Below, piece after piece: positions 4,716-42,665 of a DNA stretch of 64,000 nt (position 1 is its first letter; each line of letters starts with the position of its first letter). Source of the stretch: Sulfobacillus thermosulfidooxidans DSM 9293 (GTDB lineage Bacteria > Bacillota > Sulfobacillia > Sulfobacillales > Sulfobacillaceae). A program made the translations under genes and the position numbers. Below the pieces are notes generated by a model. It was not told the origin of the DNA and did not search any database. It saw nothing but the letters and a program-made list of their open reading frames with translations. Location: assembly GCF_900176145.1 (NCBI RefSeq), contig NZ_FWWY01000001.1, forward strand, positions 1,845,819 to 1,909,818. Direction: 5' to 3'.

Positions 4716-5606
4716 ATGGACGCCATGACCACACAGTTTGAAGCGCTGGTTGAAGCGGTAGACCAGAAGCTCGAGTCGATCGAAAAGACATCAGTTCCTG
4801 GATTTCGTCAACAGGTGGGTGAATTGGTTAATGATTTACTCGAAATGTACCGGATGGGATTCGAGCAAGTGATGCATTATGCCCATTCTTATCCCGGTCT
4901 TCCACAAAAATTAGCCGAAGATCCGGTATTAGGCCCCTTGTTGATGATCCATAATATGCATCCCCTATCTTTTGAGGAACGGGTCAACAAGGCCTTAGAA
5001 AACGTACGGCCCTATTTAAAGACCCATGACGGCAATGTGCGATTAATTTCCGTCGAACAAGGGATTGTGACGCTGGCCTTGGAAGGACATTGTCAAGGCT
5101 GCCCATCTTCGAGAATCACGGTCAAAACGGCCATTGAACAAGAACTGATGCGCTTGGCACCTGACATGTTGGATTTAATTGTCGAAGGTGAAGACCATTT
5201 AGAGGCCATGAGTGCTGATGATAGTTCGCGTGTGGTGATACCGTTAAGCGCGGTACAAGGAGTGACGGTCAAGAGCAGGCGGACCACGGGATGGTTTGCG
5301 CTCGATAACATCACCACATTATCCCCAGGATCCGCACAAAAGACCAGGGTGGAGGATCATCCGGTTATTATTGCCCGCCTTGGTGACGAATTCTTTGCCT
5401 ATCACGATTACTGTCCCCAGTGCCGGCATGTCAACCAATTGACCCTTCGGGTCAAAGACAGTGCAATCGAATGTCAATCTTGCCACGCACTGTATGATGC
5501 GAGACGGGCAGGGCGCTCCATAGATCATACATCGTATCATCTTGAGCCGTTACCGCTTTTGATTGAGGGACATGAGGCCCGCATTGCGATGCCTGTCGCT
5601 GAATAG
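4716..5606 (+). CDS. NifU-like / Rieske-fold fusion protein of the hydrogenase operon
   Basis: 296 residues. After a helical N-terminus (1-85), residues about 88-155 form a NifU C-terminal (Fe-S scaffold) domain with the cluster-binding HCQGCPSS motif (C126, C129). A Rieske-like domain follows (about 175-292). Its ligand loops are YCPQCRH (C233, C236, H238) and CQSCH (C253, C256, H257), giving C-x2-C ... C-x2-C rather than the standard C-x-H ... C-x2-H. The site may therefore hold a rubredoxin-type iron, zinc, or a four-Cys [2Fe-2S] cluster. AGGAGG precedes the ATG. Location in the hyp operon suggests cluster supply or electron transfer for the hydrogenase; this is inference. Confidence 0.85.
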   Translation: MDAMTTQFEALVEAVDQKLESIEKTSVPGFRQQVGELVNDLLEMYRMGFEQVMHYAHSYPGLPQKLAEDPVLGPLLMIHNMHPLSFEERVNKALENVRPYLKTHDGNVRLISVEQGIVTLALEGHCQGCPSSRITVKTAIEQELMRLAPDMLDLIVEGEDHLEAMSADDSSRVVIPLSAVQGVTVKSRRTTGWFALDNITTLSPGSAQKTRVEDHPVIIARLGDEFFAYHDYCPQCRHVNQLTLRVKDSAIECQSCHALYDARRAGRSIDHTSYHLEPLPLLIEGHEARIAMPVAE

Positions 5607-30366: not shown

Positions 30367-31254
30367 TCAGGGGAGGGTAATACGGGAGACAGCCGACGGA
30401 GTTCTAGCAGCGAGGCTACTCGAAACGATTAAAAGAATCCACAAGGGCGCCGAATTGGGATCTGTAGCCAGGGCTCCCCAAATCCCAAAATCCATGCCGA
30501 CAATCCACCAAAAAAGCCACCATAGCACCGAGAGATTTATCAGGATGCGAGAGTAGGGTAATATCAACCAGAAGAGGGTGAAGACGGTAAATGCCATCAG
30601 GAGAAGATTGTTGGCCAGATGAGGATAACGGCTTGTGAAGGTTATGATGTTTTGAATACCAGTATTGAATAAGGGGATAGGCAAACGGGTTTGGTTCATC
30701 TTCAAACTCCAAGCCAGTTGGTGGACATGGTCAAATGTCATGCGCATTTGCCAGATGGTCGCGGATGTCCATAGACCGATGAGGATCCAGCGAATGCGGG
30801 ATAGGATGTGGCCCTGTGTCCAATCGGAGGCGGGGCGCCATAACAAATAGGCAAAGACGGCATAGAAAAATACCGACCCGGGACTGCCACTTACGGCATT
30901 CGCCAAGGGGGTCAAAGTCATACCCAACCCCTCCCCCCAAATCCACACTATAAGACTCCATACGAGGGATAATCCTATCCCCGTTTTTTCCCAAGTGGGT
31001 GCGGGCAACGCAATGAAAATTCCTATAACGATTTGGATAATAGCAGCACCAAGATTGGCGATTAGCATATGTTGGGCCCATTGGTGAATGCCCCAGTGCA
31101 AAATGGGATGCAGCCACTGAGGTTGGTCAACGAGGTTAGGTAAAAATACCTGCGTGATGAGCGATTTAGTAAACATTGCGGGCTTTAATTGCAACAATCC
31201 ATCAAGAATCCACAAACTACTTATGCCATATTTGATTAGGGAACGCCCCATCAT
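30367..31254 (-). CDS. Polytopic membrane protein of unknown function
   Basis: 295 residues with about 7 hydrophobic spans. It begins GISSLWILDGLLQLKPAMFT then KSLITQVFLP, a pattern I associate with uncharacterised DoxX-like membrane proteins. Trp-rich segments (SVLWWLFWWIVGMDFGIWGA) near the C-terminus and no cysteine or obvious catalytic motif. Gaps on both sides (293 and 514 bases) suggest it is transcribed alone. No function is proposed. Confidence 0.6.
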   Translation of the reverse strand: MMGRSLIKYGISSLWILDGLLQLKPAMFTKSLITQVFLPNLVDQPQWLHPILHWGIHQWAQHMLIANLGAAIIQIVIGIFIALPAPTWEKTGIGLSLVWSLIVWIWGEGLGMTLTPLANAVSGSPGSVFFYAVFAYLLWRPASDWTQGHILSRIRWILIGLWTSATIWQMRMTFDHVHQLAWSLKMNQTRLPIPLFNTGIQNIITFTSRYPHLANNLLLMAFTVFTLFWLILPYSRILINLSVLWWLFWWIVGMDFGIWGALATDPNSAPLWILLIVSSSLAARTPSAVSRITLP

Positions 31255-34852: not shown

Positions 34853-35143
34853 CTGACAAAACTCCTTTAACCCGATTTTAGGTTTTGACAATGTTTTTTT
34901 TAATAATCATAACCGTCATGATAGAAAGTAGCATCGGCCATTTGGGAGTCTTCCTGGGCAATACTCTTGAACCACGCCTTTCGAGTTATAAAAAATTTCG
35001 CTAAGATTATCATTTTGCTAACAATCTTTGATACGTTATAACTATACCCTTGGTATGTTCTGGCGACATGTTGCAGTACTGTCCCAAAAAAGTTCGATTA
35101 GCCATGATAATGAATGAAAAAATGGTCGCAAGGAGGGAAGTCT

Positions 35144-35803
35144 GTGAATCTTACATTGATCTTACGGCAAAAAATGGGGAAATTGTTTTCGATTGATACC
35201 TGGCTTCCCACAGAATTGCCGGAGTATGCTACAGGCTTTATGTATACGTTGGGGTCCTTGACGGCTTCGAGTTTCGTGATGCTCTTGATTTCAGGCATTG
35301 TGATGGCGGCTAATGGGCCACAATGGTGGACCATTTCTCATTTGGGGTTTTTTGTTCGCGGTGTACATTTTTGGTCTGTGCAAGCCTTCTTTTTCTTCAT
35401 GGTCATGCATCTATTGCGGGTATTTTTTTCGGGGGCATGGCGGGGAGGACGGGAGCGAACCTGGCTATTAGGTACACTGGCCCTTCTTATTGCCATTCCC
35501 ACCGCGTTCACGGGATATCTCATGCGCGGCGACTTTTATTCACAATGGAATGCAGTTCAGGCCAAAGACGGTTTAAATGCGTTAGGATTGGCCTGGTTCA
35601 ATACATTAAATGCCGGACAGATGTATGGGTTACATGTGATTGTGTTCCCGTTTGTGTTGGGCTACATTATCGCGGTGCATATTGCCATGGTCCGCATTAA
35701 AGGTGTCGTTCCCCCCTATCCAACCCATGAAGAATTGATTGCGGATGGTGCGATAAAAGCCCCAACGCCAAAGGAGGTGCCTCATGTACCATCCGGACAT
35801 TGA
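35144..35803 (+). CDS. Cytochrome b6-type subunit of a bc-like complex
   Basis: 219 residues from a GTG start with AGGAGGG 6 bases upstream. Four membrane helices. Two pairs of haem-b ligands are visible: H75 and H89 (14 apart) in VHFWSVQAFFFFMVMH, and H164 and H179 (15 apart) in LHVIVFPFVLGYIIAVH. The 15-residue spacing of the second pair is the b6 (plastid/Firmicute) pattern. No cysteine is present, so a covalent haem c_i like that of true cytochrome b6 is not possible. It overlaps the next gene (subunit IV-like) by 20 bases. No Rieske or cytochrome c gene is beside it. Confidence 0.88.
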   Translation: MNLTLILRQKMGKLFSIDTWLPTELPEYATGFMYTLGSLTASSFVMLLISGIVMAANGPQWWTISHLGFFVRGVHFWSVQAFFFFMVMHLLRVFFSGAWRGGRERTWLLGTLALLIAIPTAFTGYLMRGDFYSQWNAVQAKDGLNALGLAWFNTLNAGQMYGLHVIVFPFVLGYIIAVHIAMVRIKGVVPPYPTHEELIADGAIKAPTPKEVPHVPSGH

Positions 35804-36728
35804 TGTGACCCACCGCTATAAATATATTCCTGCCGATTTTGCCAAACACCTACTGAGCACCACAGTTGTCATAGCGATTTTGACGATCTTGTTATCGGCG
35901 ATTTTTCATGAACCGGTACGCCCTGCTATTAAAATTAACCAGTATGCCAGGCAACATCCTTTAGGCTTCGTGAGAGTGGCGATGGGGGATTTAGATGGTC
36001 ATGGGGAAATTGCCAATTATGGGCCACCATATAATAACGGAACCGGATATGTCCAGGATTTTGTTCAGAAGTGGGTCGGCATTTTGCATCCGGTCTATCC
36101 CCGTGAAGATTTTATCCTCAAACCGTTACAATATGCGGCAACCATTAACCCTCGTTTTAACCCACCTCTTCAGCAGTTTTTAGCCGCCAGCCCCAGTCAA
36201 CAAGCACAGTGGGAAGCTGCCTACAATCGCGTTCTTCCCCAAGCGAAATATGTCGCGGGGAAAATTGTTGTGCCTCCCGCTGACTATGGTCCGGTTGCGG
36301 CATTAATGCAAGATCTTTTGCAGCTCGGGCAAAGTGGATTAATGACAGGAGCATTAGACCGGAGCCCGGCCGACTACCAGTTTGATAATCAGAATTCGCT
36401 GCTGTTTTTGCAAGGGAAACCGCTTCACGACGCCGCAGCTAAATTGGAACTCAAAGGAGATCAATGGGGCATTATTCATGAAGAAGATGCACCCTATCCG
36501 GGGCCCTGGTGGATGACGATTGTGACCGCTATCTATCAGATTCCTTTTATTGCGAATGCATCTGCCGCCGACGCTCTCGCTTTGGGATCAGGCTTGGTTC
36601 TCTTCCTATTTCTCATGTTTGCCCCGTGGATTCCGGTATTGAACCGACTTCCCAGGTATTTGGGGGTTCACCGGTTGATATGGCGGGACTATTACAAAAA
36701 ATATCATGCTAAGGATTTTCAACTTTAA
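35784..36728 (+). CDS. Cytochrome b C-terminal (subunit IV-like) protein with large extracytoplasmic insert
   Basis: 314 residues. One membrane helix (about 22-42) is followed by some 190 residues predicted outside (45-235), then two to three helices (about 243-290) and a basic end (RYLGVHRLIWRDYYKKYHAK). Ordinary subunit IV has three helices and only a short first loop. In the position where the Qo-site PEWY motif is expected the sequence reads PGPWW (239-243), so the usual Glu is absent. The insert has no CxxCH or Cys ligands. Overlaps the cytochrome b6-type gene by 20 bases, so they are one operon; assignment as partner of that subunit is strong, its redox mechanism open. Confidence 0.75.
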   Translation: MYHPDIDVTHRYKYIPADFAKHLLSTTVVIAILTILLSAIFHEPVRPAIKINQYARQHPLGFVRVAMGDLDGHGEIANYGPPYNNGTGYVQDFVQKWVGILHPVYPREDFILKPLQYAATINPRFNPPLQQFLAASPSQQAQWEAAYNRVLPQAKYVAGKIVVPPADYGPVAALMQDLLQLGQSGLMTGALDRSPADYQFDNQNSLLFLQGKPLHDAAAKLELKGDQWGIIHEEDAPYPGPWWMTIVTAIYQIPFIANASAADALALGSGLVLFLFLMFAPWIPVLNRLPRYLGVHRLIWRDYYKKYHAKDFQL

Positions 36729-36746: not shown

Positions 36747-36791
36747 TAACAAACGGGTTAAAGTCGTCCAGGCGATTTTGCCCGTTTGTTA
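36747..36791. terminator. Bidirectional hairpin between cytochrome b genes and flavoprotein gene
   Basis: A perfect 11-bp inverted repeat, taacaaacggg (36747-36757) and cccgtttgtta (36781-36791), with a 23-base loop, lies exactly between the converging operons. Confidence 0.65.
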
Positions 36792-36799
36792 TGCCCCAA

Positions 36800-37972
36800 T
36801 TACGGCATAATGGGCATCCACCCGGCAAAAATGCGGTAACTCCAATTAAAGACCGATTTTGAGGCCGCAGCCATCCGCCCGACATTGACCCATTGCCGTT
36901 TCCCTCCATAGAGGGTATCGCTTAATGTAAAAATTCCCCGCCCGTTTCCTAACCATAACACATGAAGAATATACGGATGATACGGCCGACTGGTTTTATG
37001 TTTACGTTCTGCCCAGAAGGCATGGACAGCGGTCCTGGCTTGTAACATCGCGATATGTCCCAGTTTAGGGAGCGCCGAGCGGTTAACATCGCCCACAGCA
37101 TAAATATTGGGCCACCGTTCATGACGACAATATTCATCGGTCGGCATCCACCCATAGCCGTCGTCGAGCCCACTAAGGCGCAGGAGTTGAGAGCCGGGAT
37201 AGGGAGGCACCCAAATCATCCGGTCTGCTTCCAAGGTCACTTGATTCTTCAACACAATCGCTTCACGGGTCACCCGCTCGTATTGGGCATGGGTGATGAG
37301 ATGGATATCACGCCGTTTTAATTCTTTGAGAAGAAATTCTTGACTGATGGATCCTAAGGACTCCCCTGGTACGCCAGCCGGTGTGAGTACCGTAATCGAG
37401 GTGCCTTTTCGCCGGTTGTGCTGGCTCAACCATGCATCGAGTAAAAATCCTACTTCAAATCCCGGCACATCTAATGATGCTTGCAGTTGAATAGGATCAT
37501 AAGGACTTTGGTGTAAACAGCCAATACCGATGACGATATGATGAATGGGATTGTGCACGGCATATCCCGTATTGCGGGCTAGATAGTCTTCGCACACTCC
37601 ACTTCTTTGGGGACCTAATCCCTCAATGGTTGCCCAGCCGGGATCTGAACCTGTGGCTACAAATAAGGTATCATAGGCTAATGGGGGATGTCCGGTCAAA
37701 ATGACTTGCTGCGATGCGGGATCAATTTTGAATATGGTATCGCGAATAAAGTGAAAGCCCGCCTGTTCATATTTCTTGGCCATATTAATATGCCACTGGT
37801 CTGCAATTTGGGGATGACCGGCAGCTGCCATCACCATGGCAGGGCGGTAGGTCATCATGGGCCATTGATCAACAATGGTCACATCGAGCTCATGGCGTGC
37901 AAAGAGTTTGTGTAACCAATAGGCGGTTGCCGAGCCGCCAAAACGGGAACCGAGTACAACCACTTTATGCAT
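36800..37972 (-). CDS. FAD-dependent oxidoreductase, SQR/NDH-2-like
   Basis: 390 residues. FAD-binding start VVVLGSRFGGSATAYWLHKL, NAD/FAD strand VTIVDQW, LFVATGSDPGW and the second FAD motif NIYAVGDVNRSALPKLGHIA. The C-terminus (SVFNWSYRIFAGWMP) is an amphipathic, Trp-rich membrane-contact helix as in sulfide:quinone oxidoreductase and type II NADH dehydrogenase. Cysteines at 127 (GVCEDY), 152 (GIGCLHQSPYD) and 282 recall the three SQR cysteines, but the third lies before, not after, the GD motif, so SQR activity is uncertain. It overlaps the FMN-protein gene by 8 bases. Confidence 0.75.
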   Translation of the reverse strand: MHKVVVLGSRFGGSATAYWLHKLFARHELDVTIVDQWPMMTYRPAMVMAAAGHPQIADQWHINMAKKYEQAGFHFIRDTIFKIDPASQQVILTGHPPLAYDTLFVATGSDPGWATIEGLGPQRSGVCEDYLARNTGYAVHNPIHHIVIGIGCLHQSPYDPIQLQASLDVPGFEVGFLLDAWLSQHNRRKGTSITVLTPAGVPGESLGSISQEFLLKELKRRDIHLITHAQYERVTREAIVLKNQVTLEADRMIWVPPYPGSQLLRLSGLDDGYGWMPTDEYCRHERWPNIYAVGDVNRSALPKLGHIAMLQARTAVHAFWAERKHKTSRPYHPYILHVLWLGNGRGIFTLSDTLYGGKRQWVNVGRMAAASKSVFNWSYRIFAGWMPIMP

Positions 37973-39440
37973 GGGACATCATCTCTTTTGGCGCATTTAA
38001 TAATCGATATTGCCGTAAAAGCAGTTGGTTGAGTACTTGATATTCGGCCACGACCCGGTCTAACTGGGCAGCCAAGCTATGGTTTGGGTGCCCCAAGGGC
38101 AAATTCAGATTTAATAACGTGGCTGCCTCTTGGGTTTTCGGTATCAATGACACGGTTCGTAACTGGTTGATGTGGGTGAGACCCATGGCTTCCAACATGA
38201 TGCGTAGTTCTGAGGCGGTGGCATTAAACCAGTTCACGCCATGTTCGACGGCTTCGCCCACGTCAAATGGGGGTCTTTTTTGATGGGCACTACCTGCAAA
38301 AACTAAGGCACTGGCTCCTTCTAGTGTTGTGGGCATAAAGGGCGAGAGCTGCATGTGGCTCATAGCAAATAGAATGGCCGAACCCACGGCCACAGCGTCG
38401 GCCCCGAGTGCGAGTAATTTGGCAATATCGGCTGCACCTTTGATGCCGCCTGAAGCAATGAGCGAGATGTGATGAATATCATGGTCATCTAACCAGGTCC
38501 TGGCTCTTTTGATGGCAACGGCGGTGGAAATGCCAAAGTGGTCAGAAATGACCGCTGGACTTCCTGAACTCCCGGCTTCTTGGCCATCTAAGGTCACGAC
38601 ATCGATCGGCCACGAGGTTAAAATGGCTAAATCCCGTTCAATATGGTTAGTGGCCGGGAGTTTGACTCCGAGCGGGACATCGGGATTGAGCGCTTTGATA
38701 TGGTTCAACACCCGGGGAAGGCGTGGGGTACCCGAGCGAATCACGATATGTTGGCTATGGGCAATGCGTTTGAGACGACGGGGCAAATGCTTATGTTTGG
38801 AAATGCGAATGGCGGCTTCCGCGCCTTGACCCAGATGAATTTCGATCATATCGGCGAGAGTAATCATGGGCTTTTGATGGTTCCATGGCCCTTGCGACCA
38901 TTGTAGAACCCAGCGGTAGGCATAAGCCCGTTCTTCGGGGAGAAACGGGCCTTCACCCGATGAAGTGGCGCTTCCTGCCAACGACGAAATTTGAGCAAGG
39001 GCCAGTTTGGCGTCAGCGCTAAGAGCCATACCATAAGCCATGGGCGCAATGAGCACGGGTAATTCCAGTTTCAACGGTTTTTTAGTGCGCGGCCCAATTG
39101 TCACTGCCAAGGAAATATCTTGGGTACGGGGTTCTTTAAATTCCAATGTGGCGGGATCAAAGGCGAGTTGATCAAGCAGGCTGGGTTGAAAAACAAATGA
39201 TCCCATGGGATGTTCCGCGGCTTTGCCATTCTGGGCGCGTTGCAGGAGTAGGAAAATTTCTCGCCACGACCAAGCCTGTAGAGCAAAAAATACTTCCGTC
39301 AGGTGAGTGCGGGGAGAGGAGCCGGCTAACTGTTCGGCGCCATGGCTCACCCAGCGGATGAGCCACCATAAAAGACCGATTCCGGCAATGAACAAAAGAA
39401 TGATAACAATCAAAACGGCTAAGAACACTGTGGTTAGCAT
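37965..39440 (-). CDS. Membrane-anchored FMN-binding glutamate-synthase-like protein
   Basis: 491 residues. One N-terminal membrane helix (about 4-30) precedes a glutamate-synthase alpha-subunit-like FMN barrel (about 95-420). Typical stretches are PVLIAPMAYGMALSADAKLA, SGEGPFLPEER, EIHLGQGAEA, GVKLPATNHIERD, VDVVTLDGQEAGSSGSPAV-like and ASGGIKGAADIAKLLALGAD then AVAVGSA, which binds the FMN phosphate. There is no glutaminase domain and no clear [3Fe-4S] cysteine set, so it is not a complete GOGAT. It is coupled to the SQR/NDH-2-like gene downstream, suggesting a joint membrane redox task. Substrate unknown. Confidence 0.8.
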   Translation of the reverse strand: MLTTVFLAVLIVIILLFIAGIGLLWWLIRWVSHGAEQLAGSSPRTHLTEVFFALQAWSWREIFLLLQRAQNGKAAEHPMGSFVFQPSLLDQLAFDPATLEFKEPRTQDISLAVTIGPRTKKPLKLELPVLIAPMAYGMALSADAKLALAQISSLAGSATSSGEGPFLPEERAYAYRWVLQWSQGPWNHQKPMITLADMIEIHLGQGAEAAIRISKHKHLPRRLKRIAHSQHIVIRSGTPRLPRVLNHIKALNPDVPLGVKLPATNHIERDLAILTSWPIDVVTLDGQEAGSSGSPAVISDHFGISTAVAIKRARTWLDDHDIHHISLIASGGIKGAADIAKLLALGADAVAVGSAILFAMSHMQLSPFMPTTLEGASALVFAGSAHQKRPPFDVGEAVEHGVNWFNATASELRIMLEAMGLTHINQLRTVSLIPKTQEAATLLNLNLPLGHPNHSLAAQLDRVVAEYQVLNQLLLRQYRLLNAPKEMMSHA

Positions 39441-39515: not shown

Positions 39516-40250
39516 TTACTGAATTTCTGGACTGTCAGGCACGATGCGCGAGGGCGGGGTGGTAAAGACGCTGGCCGGCATAGCGAGAGCCTCTAAAATC
39601 GCCTCCAAGGTGGGATGAAACAGGGGATCGAGCGCGATATGGCGCTGCCCGTCGACATCGGTCACCACCTGCACGGATTCCAAGAGCCGAACCACTTCGT
39701 GACCGGTGGGACGCCGCAAGGCGCCCCGGGAAGGCGAGGGGATCGCACATTCGGAGCGGCGGAGACGCCGTTCGAGTAAACTATAGAGCAGGCACGCCAG
39801 CAGAAGGACATAGCCGAGGGCCTCGATGCGTTCGGGTTTTTTGGAAAAAAGGGCATCCACAAAGAGGGGGTCTTTCACGAAATGAAAATGCCGTTCCACA
39901 CTGGTTTGCTCTTTATACTCGCGCAATAACTCCGCGGCCGAGAGGCGGGTCTCCGGCACGGTGGTGATCAACACAAATGTACTCCGGCGCTCCCATTCCT
40001 GCTGACGGCGGGCTGCATCCAGGGCACCGATCGTCACATCGATATACCAGTCTTCGTGAGAATCCGCGGGACCCGGATCGCGTCGGGGCCGACCGGGCCG
40101 GGTCTGGCGAATCTCCGACCGGATCGTCGTGGTGACCGCAAACCACGGGTGATGCCAAGTGGTCTGCCATTGGGCCAGCGCCGCTTCTGCGTCGGCCGCG
40201 CAGGCAAAGCGTTGGCGATGGAGGCGCGTGGCGGCGATTCCGCCCCCCAA
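39516..40250 (-). pseudogene. IS1634-family transposase, C-terminal part
   Basis: About 240 residues with RFACAADAEAALAQWQTTWH, RPGRPRRD, then TTVPETRLSAAELLREYKEQ followed by TSVERHFHFVKDPLFVDALF, the region carrying the last catalytic Glu and the 'Y-x-x-x-x-x-E-R' signature of IS4-superfamily transposases. The N-terminal part is at 41676-42665. The two parts are separated by the IS3-family insertion, so neither works alone. Confidence 0.85.
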
Positions 40251-40319
40251 ATTTGGACATTTGCGATCTCTTTCACGCGGATACGCATTGGGACATCATA
40301 TCAGCCCTACGGGCTGGGA

Positions 40320-40363
40320 CTGGGGGACAGGGGCCAGGGCGTCACCTCGCCCCTGTCCCCCAG
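40320..40363. repeat. Perfect 15-bp palindrome in the IS3 3' non-coding tail
   Basis: ctgggggacaggggc (40320-40334) pairs exactly with gcccctgtcccccag (40349-40363) across a 14-base loop. The surrounding ~190 bases between the orfB stop and the IS3 end (40265-40458) have no gene. It could act as a transcription block protecting the element. Confidence 0.85.
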
Positions 40364-40458
40364 TGCAAAAGTCGCTAGCTTTTCTACACTTTGACGGGCA
40401 TCCAGGTCGCTTGCCCTCCAGCGACTCGTTGTCGCATCGTCGCCGGGGACCAAAATTC

Positions 40459-41334
40459 TCAGCTCCCATGCAGCCGATCTTGGTTATAAAAGGCAATCCA
40501 TCGCGTTATGGCCGCATAGGCCTCGCCATATGTGGCAAATTCTTGAGTGAGACACTCGCGCTCCAACTGAGCATGCCACGACTCAATAAAGGCGTTTTTA
40601 TTCGGCGTGGCCACCGGAATGCGTTCATGTTCCAGACCATAGGCGGCACAAGCCGTTTCGAAGGCCTCGGCGATAAACTGGGGGCCATTGTCCGTCCGTA
40701 GAACGGGAGGCGTTTGCCATTCCGATTGACGCTGGAGTACCGCGTGTTTTAGAGTTCGCACAACATCCGTCGCCTGACAATGGAGTCCCATGTGGTAGGC
40801 AATAATCATGCGGTCACACACATCGATAATGGCTTGGAGATACAAAAACCGATCCTCGCCCGCGATATACACATAGGTAATGTCCGTTTGCCAGAGCTGA
40901 TTGGGAGCCGTAATGATGCGGTTCCGCGCCAGCCGGCGCGGATGCCGGATGCGGCGTTTTCGCTGAGGCCATAACAAGTGCCATTGTCGAAGGAGGCGAT
41001 ACACCTTTTTGAAACTAATCTGTAGATGATAGCGTCGTCGCAAGACCCATGTGATTTTATGATACCCATAGGCCGCGTTCTCCGTCGTCAGAATATCGGT
41101 AATCCAGTCCATAATCTGGCCATCGGCGATTTTCTGGCCATTTTGTGTGACGCTGTATCCTCGCGGAGGTCGACCCGGCGCCTGATGGGGCCGATCTGGT
41201 TCAGGATGGCGTTGGCGATGACGCCACGCATAAAAGGTGGCCCGTGAAAGGCGAATCGTCGCACACCATCGGCGAAGGGACACCTGGGGAGCGCGGTGAT
41301 GCCAGTCCATCACGTGTTCACACAATTCTGTCAC
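40459..41334 (-). CDS. IS3-family transposase OrfB
   Basis: 291 residues from a GTG that overlaps the orfA stop (GTGA). HTH_21 region (SLRRWCATIRLSRATFYAWR) then rve-type integrase core with the DDE triad: Asp in WQTDITYVYI, Asp in LRTDNGPQFI and Glu in NKNAFIESWHAQLERE. Intact at full family length, so it may be active. It is in the -1 frame relative to orfA and is probably made as an OrfAB fusion through the slippery heptamer at 41346-41352. Confidence 0.93.
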   Translation of the reverse strand: MTELCEHVMDWHHRAPQVSLRRWCATIRLSRATFYAWRHRQRHPEPDRPHQAPGRPPRGYSVTQNGQKIADGQIMDWITDILTTENAAYGYHKITWVLRRRYHLQISFKKVYRLLRQWHLLWPQRKRRIRHPRRLARNRIITAPNQLWQTDITYVYIAGEDRFLYLQAIIDVCDRMIIAYHMGLHCQATDVVRTLKHAVLQRQSEWQTPPVLRTDNGPQFIAEAFETACAAYGLEHERIPVATPNKNAFIESWHAQLERECLTQEFATYGEAYAAITRWIAFYNQDRLHGS

Positions 41335-41609
41335 GGACGGATCCCCTTTTTTTGCAGCAGATCTTGAAGCATGGCAATCTGCAGATCTTTTTCCCCGAGT
41401 AATTTCTTTAATCGTTCATTTTCGTCTACCAGACTCATGAGATCGTGGGGATGGTGGGCCGCCTTCACCGCCTCACGCACCCAGCGACGCACCATGGATG
41501 GACTCAGCTGATGACGACGAGCGACTAATGTCGCATTTTGCGTGTCTTGAGCTTCTTGAACAATCTGTTGCTTGAATTCCGGTGAATAGGTTTGACTCAT
41601 CGTGCACAC
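41331..41609 (-). CDS. IS3-family transposase OrfA
   Basis: 92 residues. N-terminal helix-turn-helix of the HTH_8/IS3 type (YSPEFKQQIVQEAQDTQNAT, LVARRHQLSPSMVRRWVREA) followed by a leucine-zipper-like helix (LVDENERLKKLLGEKDLQIA then MLQDLL), the standard OrfA architecture for binding the terminal repeats and for dimer formation. Ends a few codons after the frameshift site. Confidence 0.92.
   Translation of the reverse strand: MCTMSQTYSPEFKQQIVQEAQDTQNATLVARRHQLSPSMVRRWVREAVKAAHHPHDLMSLVDENERLKKLLGEKDLQIAMLQDLLQKKGIRP
41346..41352 (-). promoter_or_regulatory. Programmed -1 frameshift slippery heptamer A AAA AAG
   Basis: On the minus strand the orfA codons read caa aaa aag ggg; AAAAAAG is in the right register (X XXY YYZ) for -1 slippage into the orfB frame, 12-18 bases before the orfA stop. 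This is the classical signal of IS3-family elements. Confidence 0.8.
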
Positions 41610-41675
41610 TCTCTCCTCTGAACTGATAATTATCCTACCAGGAGAGATCGCGATTGTCTCGTCTTCTTAAGGGGC

Positions 41676-42665
41676 TTAAAAGGCGGATTGCTCCAATGCC
41701 GTCCGTGATCGCTGGATCTCGCGATCCAAGGTCTTCGCACGGCGCGGATCTAAGACGGATGAGCGATACACGACACAGCGGTAATGCCGCCCGTCAATCT
41801 CGCCCACCTGCTCTGACGCGCCATAGTGGGCGGCCTGACGCCGTTGGCCAATCGGGCCGATGGCGATCCATTGATCGGTGGCCCAAGCCGCCTGCTTCAG
41901 GGTCGACACGATCCCGAAGGTGTCGGGGCACCGGGACACAAAGGCGACCCCTTGATGATCCAGCCGGGCTAAGTTGGGCCCGGTCACTAAGGCGGAATCG
42001 GCGACATAAATGAGTTGCGCCAATTGCTCGGGCTCCATGGCCGCTACTACGCGGTCGACCATCTCCGCATTGAGTGTTTTGTCGGAGCGATTCCCGGACT
42101 CGACGGTTCCCGCGAGGGGGACCCCCTCGCGATTGACGAATAGCGTGAGGACAATTTGCTTAAGGTCCGGGCGCGCATCCTTGGAATGCCCGAAGGCGGG
42201 CTGGACGGGCGCCGATCCCCCATGATCGAAGGTCCCTGTCAAGGACCGGGAGGTGGTGTCAAAATGTCCACTGTGCAACGTCACCCCTTCGCGCATATAC
42301 GCTTGGGCGGCGACGGCACTAAAAATGCGGGCGGGTTGCGCGCGGGCCAATTTATCCAAGGCCCGCCCCAAGCTGTCATCCGACAGGTCGGCCGCCAAGC
42401 GATCGGCTCCGATCAGGACCGCCACATCCGTGGTGGTCCAGCGTTCGGCCATCCGATACAGAGGGGATTTGCCGAGCAGCAGATCCAGGACCATCACCAA
42501 CAGCCGCTCCCCGGGCGACACGTGGCATTGGCGGGCATCCCACCGCACGGAACGATTGACCATATCGACGAGGCCGATGTCATCGGCCACCTGGCGAAAC
42601 AGCGGGGCCGCACCGACGACCCGACTGTTGGGAATGAGAAAGTTCATACAGACTCTATTCGCCAT
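41676..42665 (-). pseudogene. IS1634-family transposase, N-terminal part
   Basis: About 329 residues. DUF4277-like start (LFRQVADDIGLVDMVNRSVR), then DDE-type core with the first Asp in HFDTTSRSLTGTFDH and another in VADSALVTGPNL, RCPDTFG. It ends at a stop brought in by the IS3 insertion just after RSRTALEQSA. Continues in the fragment at 39516-40250. Confidence 0.87.

Follow-up and report, generated by a model that had tools for sequence, protein, structure and literature searches.

A cytochrome b6-type gene pair without a Rieske protein in Sulfobacillus thermosulfidooxidans and its relatives: a possible electron conduit linking menaquinone to a carrier outside the cytoplasm

The route by which Gram-positive iron oxidisers such as Sulfobacillus link their quinones to iron or copper-protein carriers on the outside, and the means by which they form NADH without an ordinary bc1 complex, are questions raised in the literature (PMC4378227, PMC6803676). 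A locus that bears on both lies in the 3.86 Mb genome of Sulfobacillus thermosulfidooxidans DSM 9293, within a 64,000-nt stretch of contig NZ_FWWY01000001.1 (positions 1,845,819 to 1,909,818), here termed the window and used for all coordinates unless another contig or locus is named. The open reading frames of the window place at 35144-36728 a two-gene unit in which a diheme b6-type subunit is followed by a partner protein. The question is what such a pair may do when the Rieske protein is lacking.

The b6-type subunit (35144-35803, forward strand) is a protein of 219 aa with four predicted membrane helices. Its GTG start at 35144, as given in the preliminary description, is borne out and is preferred over a longer open reading frame from 35114, because a good Shine-Dalgarno sequence (AGGAGG, 35131-35136, forward strand) lies ahead of it. 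By sequence, the subunit clearly belongs to the cytochrome b6 superfamily: it matches the Pfam families Cytochrom_B_N_2 (PF13631, E 2.3e-16) and Cytochrome_B (PF00033, E 8e-12), aligns with canonical b6 in profile-profile comparison (99.8%, E 5e-29), and finds cytochrome b6 in the PDB (E 5e-21). The four haem ligands that were first read from the window are indeed kept. With numbering counted from 35114, these are His85 (codon 35366-35368) and His99 (35408-35410) of helix B, spaced H-X13-H (35366-35410, forward strand), and His174 (35633-35635) and His189 (35678-35680) of helix D, spaced H-X14-H (35633-35680, forward strand), all invariant in 47/47 representatives. The window pair, thus, includes a diheme cytochrome b N-terminal domain with its four His ligands. 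The haem c_n Cys of helix A, by contrast, is absent at its position from the 47 b6 sequences; where the canonical b6 of the relative AMDSBA4 reads FVYCFGGV, the window protein reads FMYTLGSL (35237-35260, forward strand). Only two Cytochrom_B_N_2 genes occur in the genome, the window gene and a paralogue, and both are accompanied by a partner gene. The best NCBIfam match of the subunit is ExtP (NF040969), the b-type cytochrome of a selenite/tellurite reduction operon, at 71.8 bits, which is far under the curated cut-off of 290 bits. The name points to a non-bc operon, and ExtP may thus be an earlier example of a b6-type subunit that does not serve a bc complex, a comparison drawn by family name and not by operon content; no multihaem partner adjoins the window pair.

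The partner gene (35784-36728, forward strand) has its own Shine-Dalgarno sequence (AGGAGG, 35772-35777, forward strand), overlaps the b6 gene by 20 nt, and encodes 314 aa with two membrane helices. The first predicted helix (35838-35903, forward strand) falls at the position of helix E in the model of a fused homologue, and the second (36567-36629, forward strand), at the position of helix F, is followed by a basic cytoplasmic tail. Between them lies a mostly helical extracytoplasmic insert (residues 43-241; 35910-36506, forward strand). The preliminary description of an outside insert free of haem motifs holds, with a length of about 200 residues; neither window protein contains Cys, and CxxCH is therefore absent from the pair. 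Conserved sites of the insert, in partner numbering, include YGPPY (79-83), W143, W228 and H232. In an Alicyclobacillus-Sulfoacidibacillus subgroup, the cytoplasmic tail of the partner carries a conserved four-Cys motif, CxxCPxxxxCxxEF...CY, which is seen at the C-termini of seven partners (L124, L125, L128, L130, L132, L135 and L138). From its sequence, this tail might form an Fe-S or metal site near the inner haem.

Beyond the pair, an inverted repeat (36747-36791), with 16-nt arms at 36747-36762 and 36776-36791 that are 88% complementary, sits ahead of a convergent flavoprotein gene and could end the transcripts of both. The convergent genes (36800-39440) encode an SQR-like flavoprotein and a membrane-anchored glutamate-synthase-like FMN protein, and just downstream of the latter are transposase-like open reading frames (39516-42665), which are overlapping insertion-sequence genes. 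On the other side, a membrane protein with no Pfam match (30367-31254; LLQLKPAMF) has a homologue in a Rieske-sulfocyanin gene cluster of the Alicyclobacillaceae genome I2511 (L193, 6743-7621, E 8e-24).

The naming of the partner as subunit IV-like fares differently by sequence and by other evidence. The window partner has zero matches in Pfam or NCBIfam, the Pfam subunit IV family matches none of the 68 partners, and hhalign of the partner against subunit IV gives a probability of 3% over 29 columns. The absence of PF00032 was rejected as proof against a canonical subunit IV, since the test is too insensitive, having missed canonical subunit IV in two other genomes (G026 and G035). Thus, sequence gives the claim no support, while gene order, a natural fusion and predicted structure speak for it. 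The fusion occurs in two metagenome-assembled genomes of Ktedonobacterales (L140 and L142), in which b6 and partner form one chain of 547 residues, and both proteins therefore belong to one complex.

An AlphaFold2 prediction of the window partner with 68 relatives has a mean pLDDT of 79, while much of the insert (residues 51-190) reaches 95-98 and is mostly helical. A search of the PDB with the partner sequence gave nothing, and the idea that the insert is a known redox fold was rejected, Foldseek and VIA-align having returned no convincing match for the whole partner (best E 1.8; best Z 2.7), a result that does not make the fold of the insert a new one. The fused homologue is modelled with a pTM of 0.73. 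On superposition, 282 residues of this model align with bc1 cytochrome b (Z 20, 3.2 A; model residues 9-525, bc1 chain residues 8-317), as against about 190 aligned residues with b6f cytochrome b6 alone, and about 90 partner residues are therefore predicted to fit helices E-F, in a model that is the homologue's and from a predictor that has seen bc1 structures in training. In the model, the partner has no helix G, and the loop between helices E and F is split by the insert. Chiefly from this superposition, the partner is taken as a probable equivalent of subunit IV.

The pair is coherent as a family. Among 61 relatives, the partner is present in 36 genomes, and in the readable flanks the b6 gene is always beside it, with no Rieske or CxxCH protein adjoining. 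At 89 of the 91 partner genes examined, b6 adjoins the partner, which amounts to 89 distinct pairs. When 84,980 species genomes were scanned, 294 stretches proved to encode relatives, and the 80 that were fetched derive from Sulfobacillus, Alicyclobacillus, Sulfoacidibacillus, other Bacillota, Ktedonobacterales and some very small genomes. Since a spread sample of the same phylum has the pair in 6/398 genomes, the family is restricted; the viral contigs searched hold no relative of it. In the Sulfobacillales, the pair forms two ancient clades, one with PGPWW (that of the window) and one mostly with PGAWW or PAAWW, the latter including the second pair of the genome (C1:2814905-2816507). Distances among b6 subunits and among partners are correlated (r 0.96), a co-inheritance that is expected from shared ancestry. 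No neighbouring gene is consistently adjacent across the copies. A gene for the SQR-like and/or FMN protein recurs about 2-7 kb from the pair in several lineages (L043, L050, L052 and L055). The SQR-like flavoprotein was considered as a partner named by neighbourhood and rejected, as it recurs near several copies but the association is weak. The pair is also held by genomes of 0.6-0.8 Mb (L136 and L139, from G460 and G461, and L143), one of which is labelled Colwellbacteria, and in these a third, small gene for a membrane protein comes after the pair.

This conservation bears on whether the pair is a bc complex in decay, which has lost its Rieske protein and cytochrome c and is disappearing. 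The Rieske protein, the Cys of haem c_n, helix G and the Glu are all missing, as decay would have it. Both subunits, however, are strongly conserved across the order and beyond, in two ancient paralogous clades with the haem ligands intact everywhere, and transcription has been reported (PMC6315122). Decay is disfavoured because the pair is conserved, and appears most improbable.

A second possibility is that the missing subunit is encoded elsewhere. As first described for the window, no Rieske or cytochrome c gene lies in or next to the operon, and this extends to the relatives; no protein with CxxCH occurs in or beside the pair in the listed loci. The search for unlinked Rieske genes that had been proposed was carried to the whole genome and yielded four Rieske-domain matches, none of bc type: an oxygenase of 322 aa, a ferredoxin-type protein of 114 aa, a NirD-type protein of 125 aa and a NifU-Rieske fusion. 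The CTHxGC/CPCHGS arrangement of bc-type Rieske proteins is in none of these four. The NifU-Rieske fusion is encoded in the window itself (4716-5606), beside hydrogenase-maturation-like genes, and its Rieske domain scores slightly under the Pfam cut-off.

The same search does detect bc-type Rieske proteins where they exist. Of 20 further genomes, some contain one (AMDSBA4, G035 and Alicyclobacillus), and the positive controls AMDSBA4 (L189), G035 (L190) and Alicyclobacillaceae I2511 (L193) have operons with a bc-type Rieske (CTHLGC/CPCHGS), a canonical b6 (YCFGG) and subunit IV (PDWY). These canonical operons share with the pair b6 homology and some organisms, as the genomes of AMDSBA4, G035 and I2511 (or records of the same isolate) also hold the Rieske-less pair. 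The bc-type Rieske of the relatives was rejected as the missing subunit, as it belongs to an operon of its own at the loci where a canonical b6 was found beside it (L189, L190 and L193). Thus, the Rieske-less pair is a distinct complex and not a bc complex with a relocated Rieske gene, because ordinary Rieske-b6-subunit IV operons coexist with it. The canonical complex of AMDSBA4 agrees with Justice et al. 2014 (PMC4378227).

The reading of PGPWW in place of PEWY also stands. The motif YPGPWW of the window partner (36495-36512, forward strand) occupies the PEWY/PDWY site of canonical complexes, and the 68 partners read YPG[PA]WW, YPAAWW or YPGAVW there, with no Asp or Glu in 68/68. The missing Glu was rejected as proof that a Qo site is lacking: it is not diagnostic, because the Rieske-adjacent cytochrome b of class relatives also departs from Glu, reading PPWY (L060), PLWY (L061 and L066) and PLWF (L064). 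Some of these four Rieske-bearing cytochrome b proteins have a fused CxxCH domain. In bc complexes, the Rieske head docks at the helix E-F loop. The lack of a bc-type Rieske together with an insert in the E-F loop is, thus, stronger evidence than the missing Glu. Given that the genome encodes no bc-type Rieske, that the insert is free of haem motifs, and that Glu and the c_n Cys are both absent, an ordinary Rieske-based Qo cycle is, as was anticipated, unlikely in the window organism.

Expression data bear on the paralogous pair. In Christel et al. 2018 (PMC6315122), transcripts are compared as Leptospirillum (L. ferriphilum) removes Fe(II). On this removal, two genes annotated 'cytochrome b/b6 domain', Sulth_2730 and Sulth_2731, fall 3.4-fold (819 to 238) and 2.7-fold (2148 to 804), respectively, and sulfocyanin Sulth_2749 falls in the same experiment from 9756 to 1112 (PMC6315122). 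Mapped by gene order and not by sequence, Sulth_2730/2731 correspond to the paralogous pair and not to the window pair, because order and rough gene count match Sulth_2749 and Sulth_2770: two sulfocyanin genes (C1:2828751 and C1:2830123) lie 12-14 kb past the paralogous pair, and farther on, at C1:2855051, is an HdrC-like gene. The co-expression with sulfocyanin is not specific, because most cytochromes fell in what is reported there (PMC6315122).

Sulfocyanin accompanies canonical cytochrome b in some related acidophiles. The window genome has six SoxE-family matches. In I2511, genes for canonical b6, subunit IV and Rieske are followed by one for sulfocyanin (L193, 8880-12261), and the canonical cytochrome b of G047 (L064) has a sulfocyanin-like C-terminal domain; in G463, apparently the same genome, a SoxE match (E 7e-18) lies inside the corresponding open frame. 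This adjacency and fusion suggest, at the level of sequence, that canonical cytochrome b complexes of related acidophiles probably hand electrons to sulfocyanin. For the Rieske-less pair, sulfocyanin is not an obligate partner, because S. acidophilus (G011) keeps the pair without a detectable sulfocyanin; none was detected either in the pair-bearing G035 and small genomes. The proposed tie to iron metabolism through an outside donor or acceptor is plausible on indirect grounds, namely the co-expression of the paralogous pair with sulfocyanin (PMC6315122) and the occurrence of the pair in known iron-oxidising and iron-reducing acidophiles. Both iron oxidation and iron reduction are listed for the cultivated species of Sulfobacillus and for Alicyclobacillus tolerans (PMC8790237).

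These observations also bear on a Q cycle that would run without a Rieske protein. Its Qo pocket would work, a cupredoxin (sulfocyanin) or cytochrome c on the insert would replace the Rieske protein and take the first quinol electron, and the second would cross to the Qn site; reversed by the proton gradient, the cycle would push electrons from Fe(II) to menaquinone. Both b haems are kept, a Qo site without Glu is possible given the Glu-less PEWY variants of Rieske-bearing class relatives, related acidophiles have sulfocyanin joined to canonical cytochrome b or encoded next to it, and Sulfobacillus is an Fe(II) oxidiser whose genome offers no ordinary bc1 to carry electrons uphill (PMC6803676). 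However, the pair of S. acidophilus has no detectable sulfocyanin to work with, the haem c_n Cys is lost, and the partner is without helix G. Moreover, we know of no bifurcating cytochrome b that works without an Fe-S partner. Such a cycle is, thus, unlikely, and its boldest form, in which the blue-copper protein sulfocyanin replaces Rieske on the insert and acidophiles without bc1 drive Fe(II) electrons uphill to menaquinone, is quite improbable. If true, a Rieske-less Q cycle would be a more surprising answer than a simple conduit.

Across the cytochrome b superfamily, two b haems are stacked across the membrane between quinone-side pockets. The preferred reading, at a probability of roughly two in five, is that the pair forms a diheme cytochrome b complex that stands alone, does not bifurcate and acts as a conduit between menaquinone and an outside carrier. 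The sequences show a diheme membrane core and a dedicated partner with an outside domain, and no further cofactor site is recognisable in them. The b6 subunit would hold the two stacked haems across the membrane, the partner would supply counterparts of helices E and F of cytochrome b, and the cofactor-free helical insert would lie on the outside, at the place where an ordinary complex receives its Rieske head. In this proposal, for which we infer quinone binding, the outside partner and the direction alike, electrons would pass one by one between the pool of menaquinone and a mobile carrier that docks on the insert from the extracytoplasmic side. Sulfocyanin, rusticyanin or a c-type cytochrome are candidate carriers, or Fe(III) may be used directly. 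The potential of Fe(II) is about +0.7 V at pH 2 and that of menaquinone about -0.07 V. The outward direction, quinol oxidation, is the likelier, because without bifurcation electrons from Fe(II) could not be lifted to menaquinone. Against the conduit, no partner is encoded beside the pair, S. acidophilus has a pair without a detectable sulfocyanin, the co-expression is unspecific and concerns the paralogous pair, and the sequence of the partner does not match subunit IV.

Electron flow in the opposite direction is conceivable with a different donor. The pair would then be an inlet, in which an outside donor, such as a reduced sulfur compound or another donor below the potential of Fe(II), hands electrons to the outer b haem and menaquinone is reduced by the inner one, much as happens in hydrogenases and formate dehydrogenases through their cytochrome b subunits. 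Besides the pair, a CyoABC-like bo3-type quinol oxidase and haem o synthase are encoded in two of the small genomes, of 0.7-0.8 Mb (G460 and G461; oxidase loci L206 and L207), and subunit II of this oxidase is without the CuA motif. This setting fits a quinone-linked role of the pair, and the bo3-type enzyme is the only oxidase found in these genomes, which would suit an inlet, but small genomes may have other quinone reductases. Similarly, an SQR-like flavoprotein gene occurs within about 5 kb in several separate lineages, but SQR-like proteins reduce quinone unaided, and the pair has no co-encoded dehydrogenase. An inlet is, on balance, rather unlikely.

A further alternative takes the electrons from the cytoplasm. 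The pair would be a transmembrane reductase, b561- or ferric reductase-like, that reduces outside Fe(III) or another oxidant apart from the quinone chain. The four-Cys tail of the Alicyclobacillus-Sulfoacidibacillus subgroup, as a possible Fe-S or metal site by the inner haem, and VIT-family iron transporter genes near some copies would agree with this. However, the metal site is putative, the tail is absent in Sulfobacillus, the window included, and the pair has no NAD(P)H or flavin domain, which leaves a transmembrane reductase with little likelihood.

The nearest known systems to the proposed conduit are the cytochrome b6f and menaquinol:cytochrome c (Rieske-b6) complexes of Firmicutes. As in these, a four-helix diheme b6-type subunit is followed by a separate partner gene, the ligands are spaced H-X13-H and H-X14-H, and the fused-homologue model superposes on a whole cytochrome b. 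Unlike these, the window pair has no Rieske, cytochrome c/f or c_n Cys, and its PEWY position is non-acidic; the partner has an outside insert of about 200 residues, no helix G and no detectable similarity to subunit IV.

The basic observation is not new, because stand-alone cytochrome b genes are already remarked in both PMC4378227 and PMC6803676. Justice et al. 2014 (PMC4378227) notes that other Sulfobacillus have a petB-homologous diheme cytochrome b that may serve another function, while cytochrome c and the iron-sulfur protein are missing, and Panyushkina et al. 2019 (PMC6803676) again finds only cytochrome b; a canonical bc1 complex is absent according to both papers. The 'di-heme cytochrome b homologous to petB' is very probably encoded by the same genes as those considered here. 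The available text of these papers yielded no description of the partner family, its fusion, distribution or structure, or the losses of the motif and of c_n; likewise, they yielded no description of the coexistence with canonical complexes, the small genomes or the four-Cys tail.

Apart from this pair and its paralogue, the genome yielded no cytochrome b6-type machinery; both pairs are conserved across the order and are clear candidates for the link between quinones and outside carriers in these iron oxidisers. The family illustrates the form that a cytochrome b complex can take once its Rieske subunit is gone, and offers a defined two-gene target.
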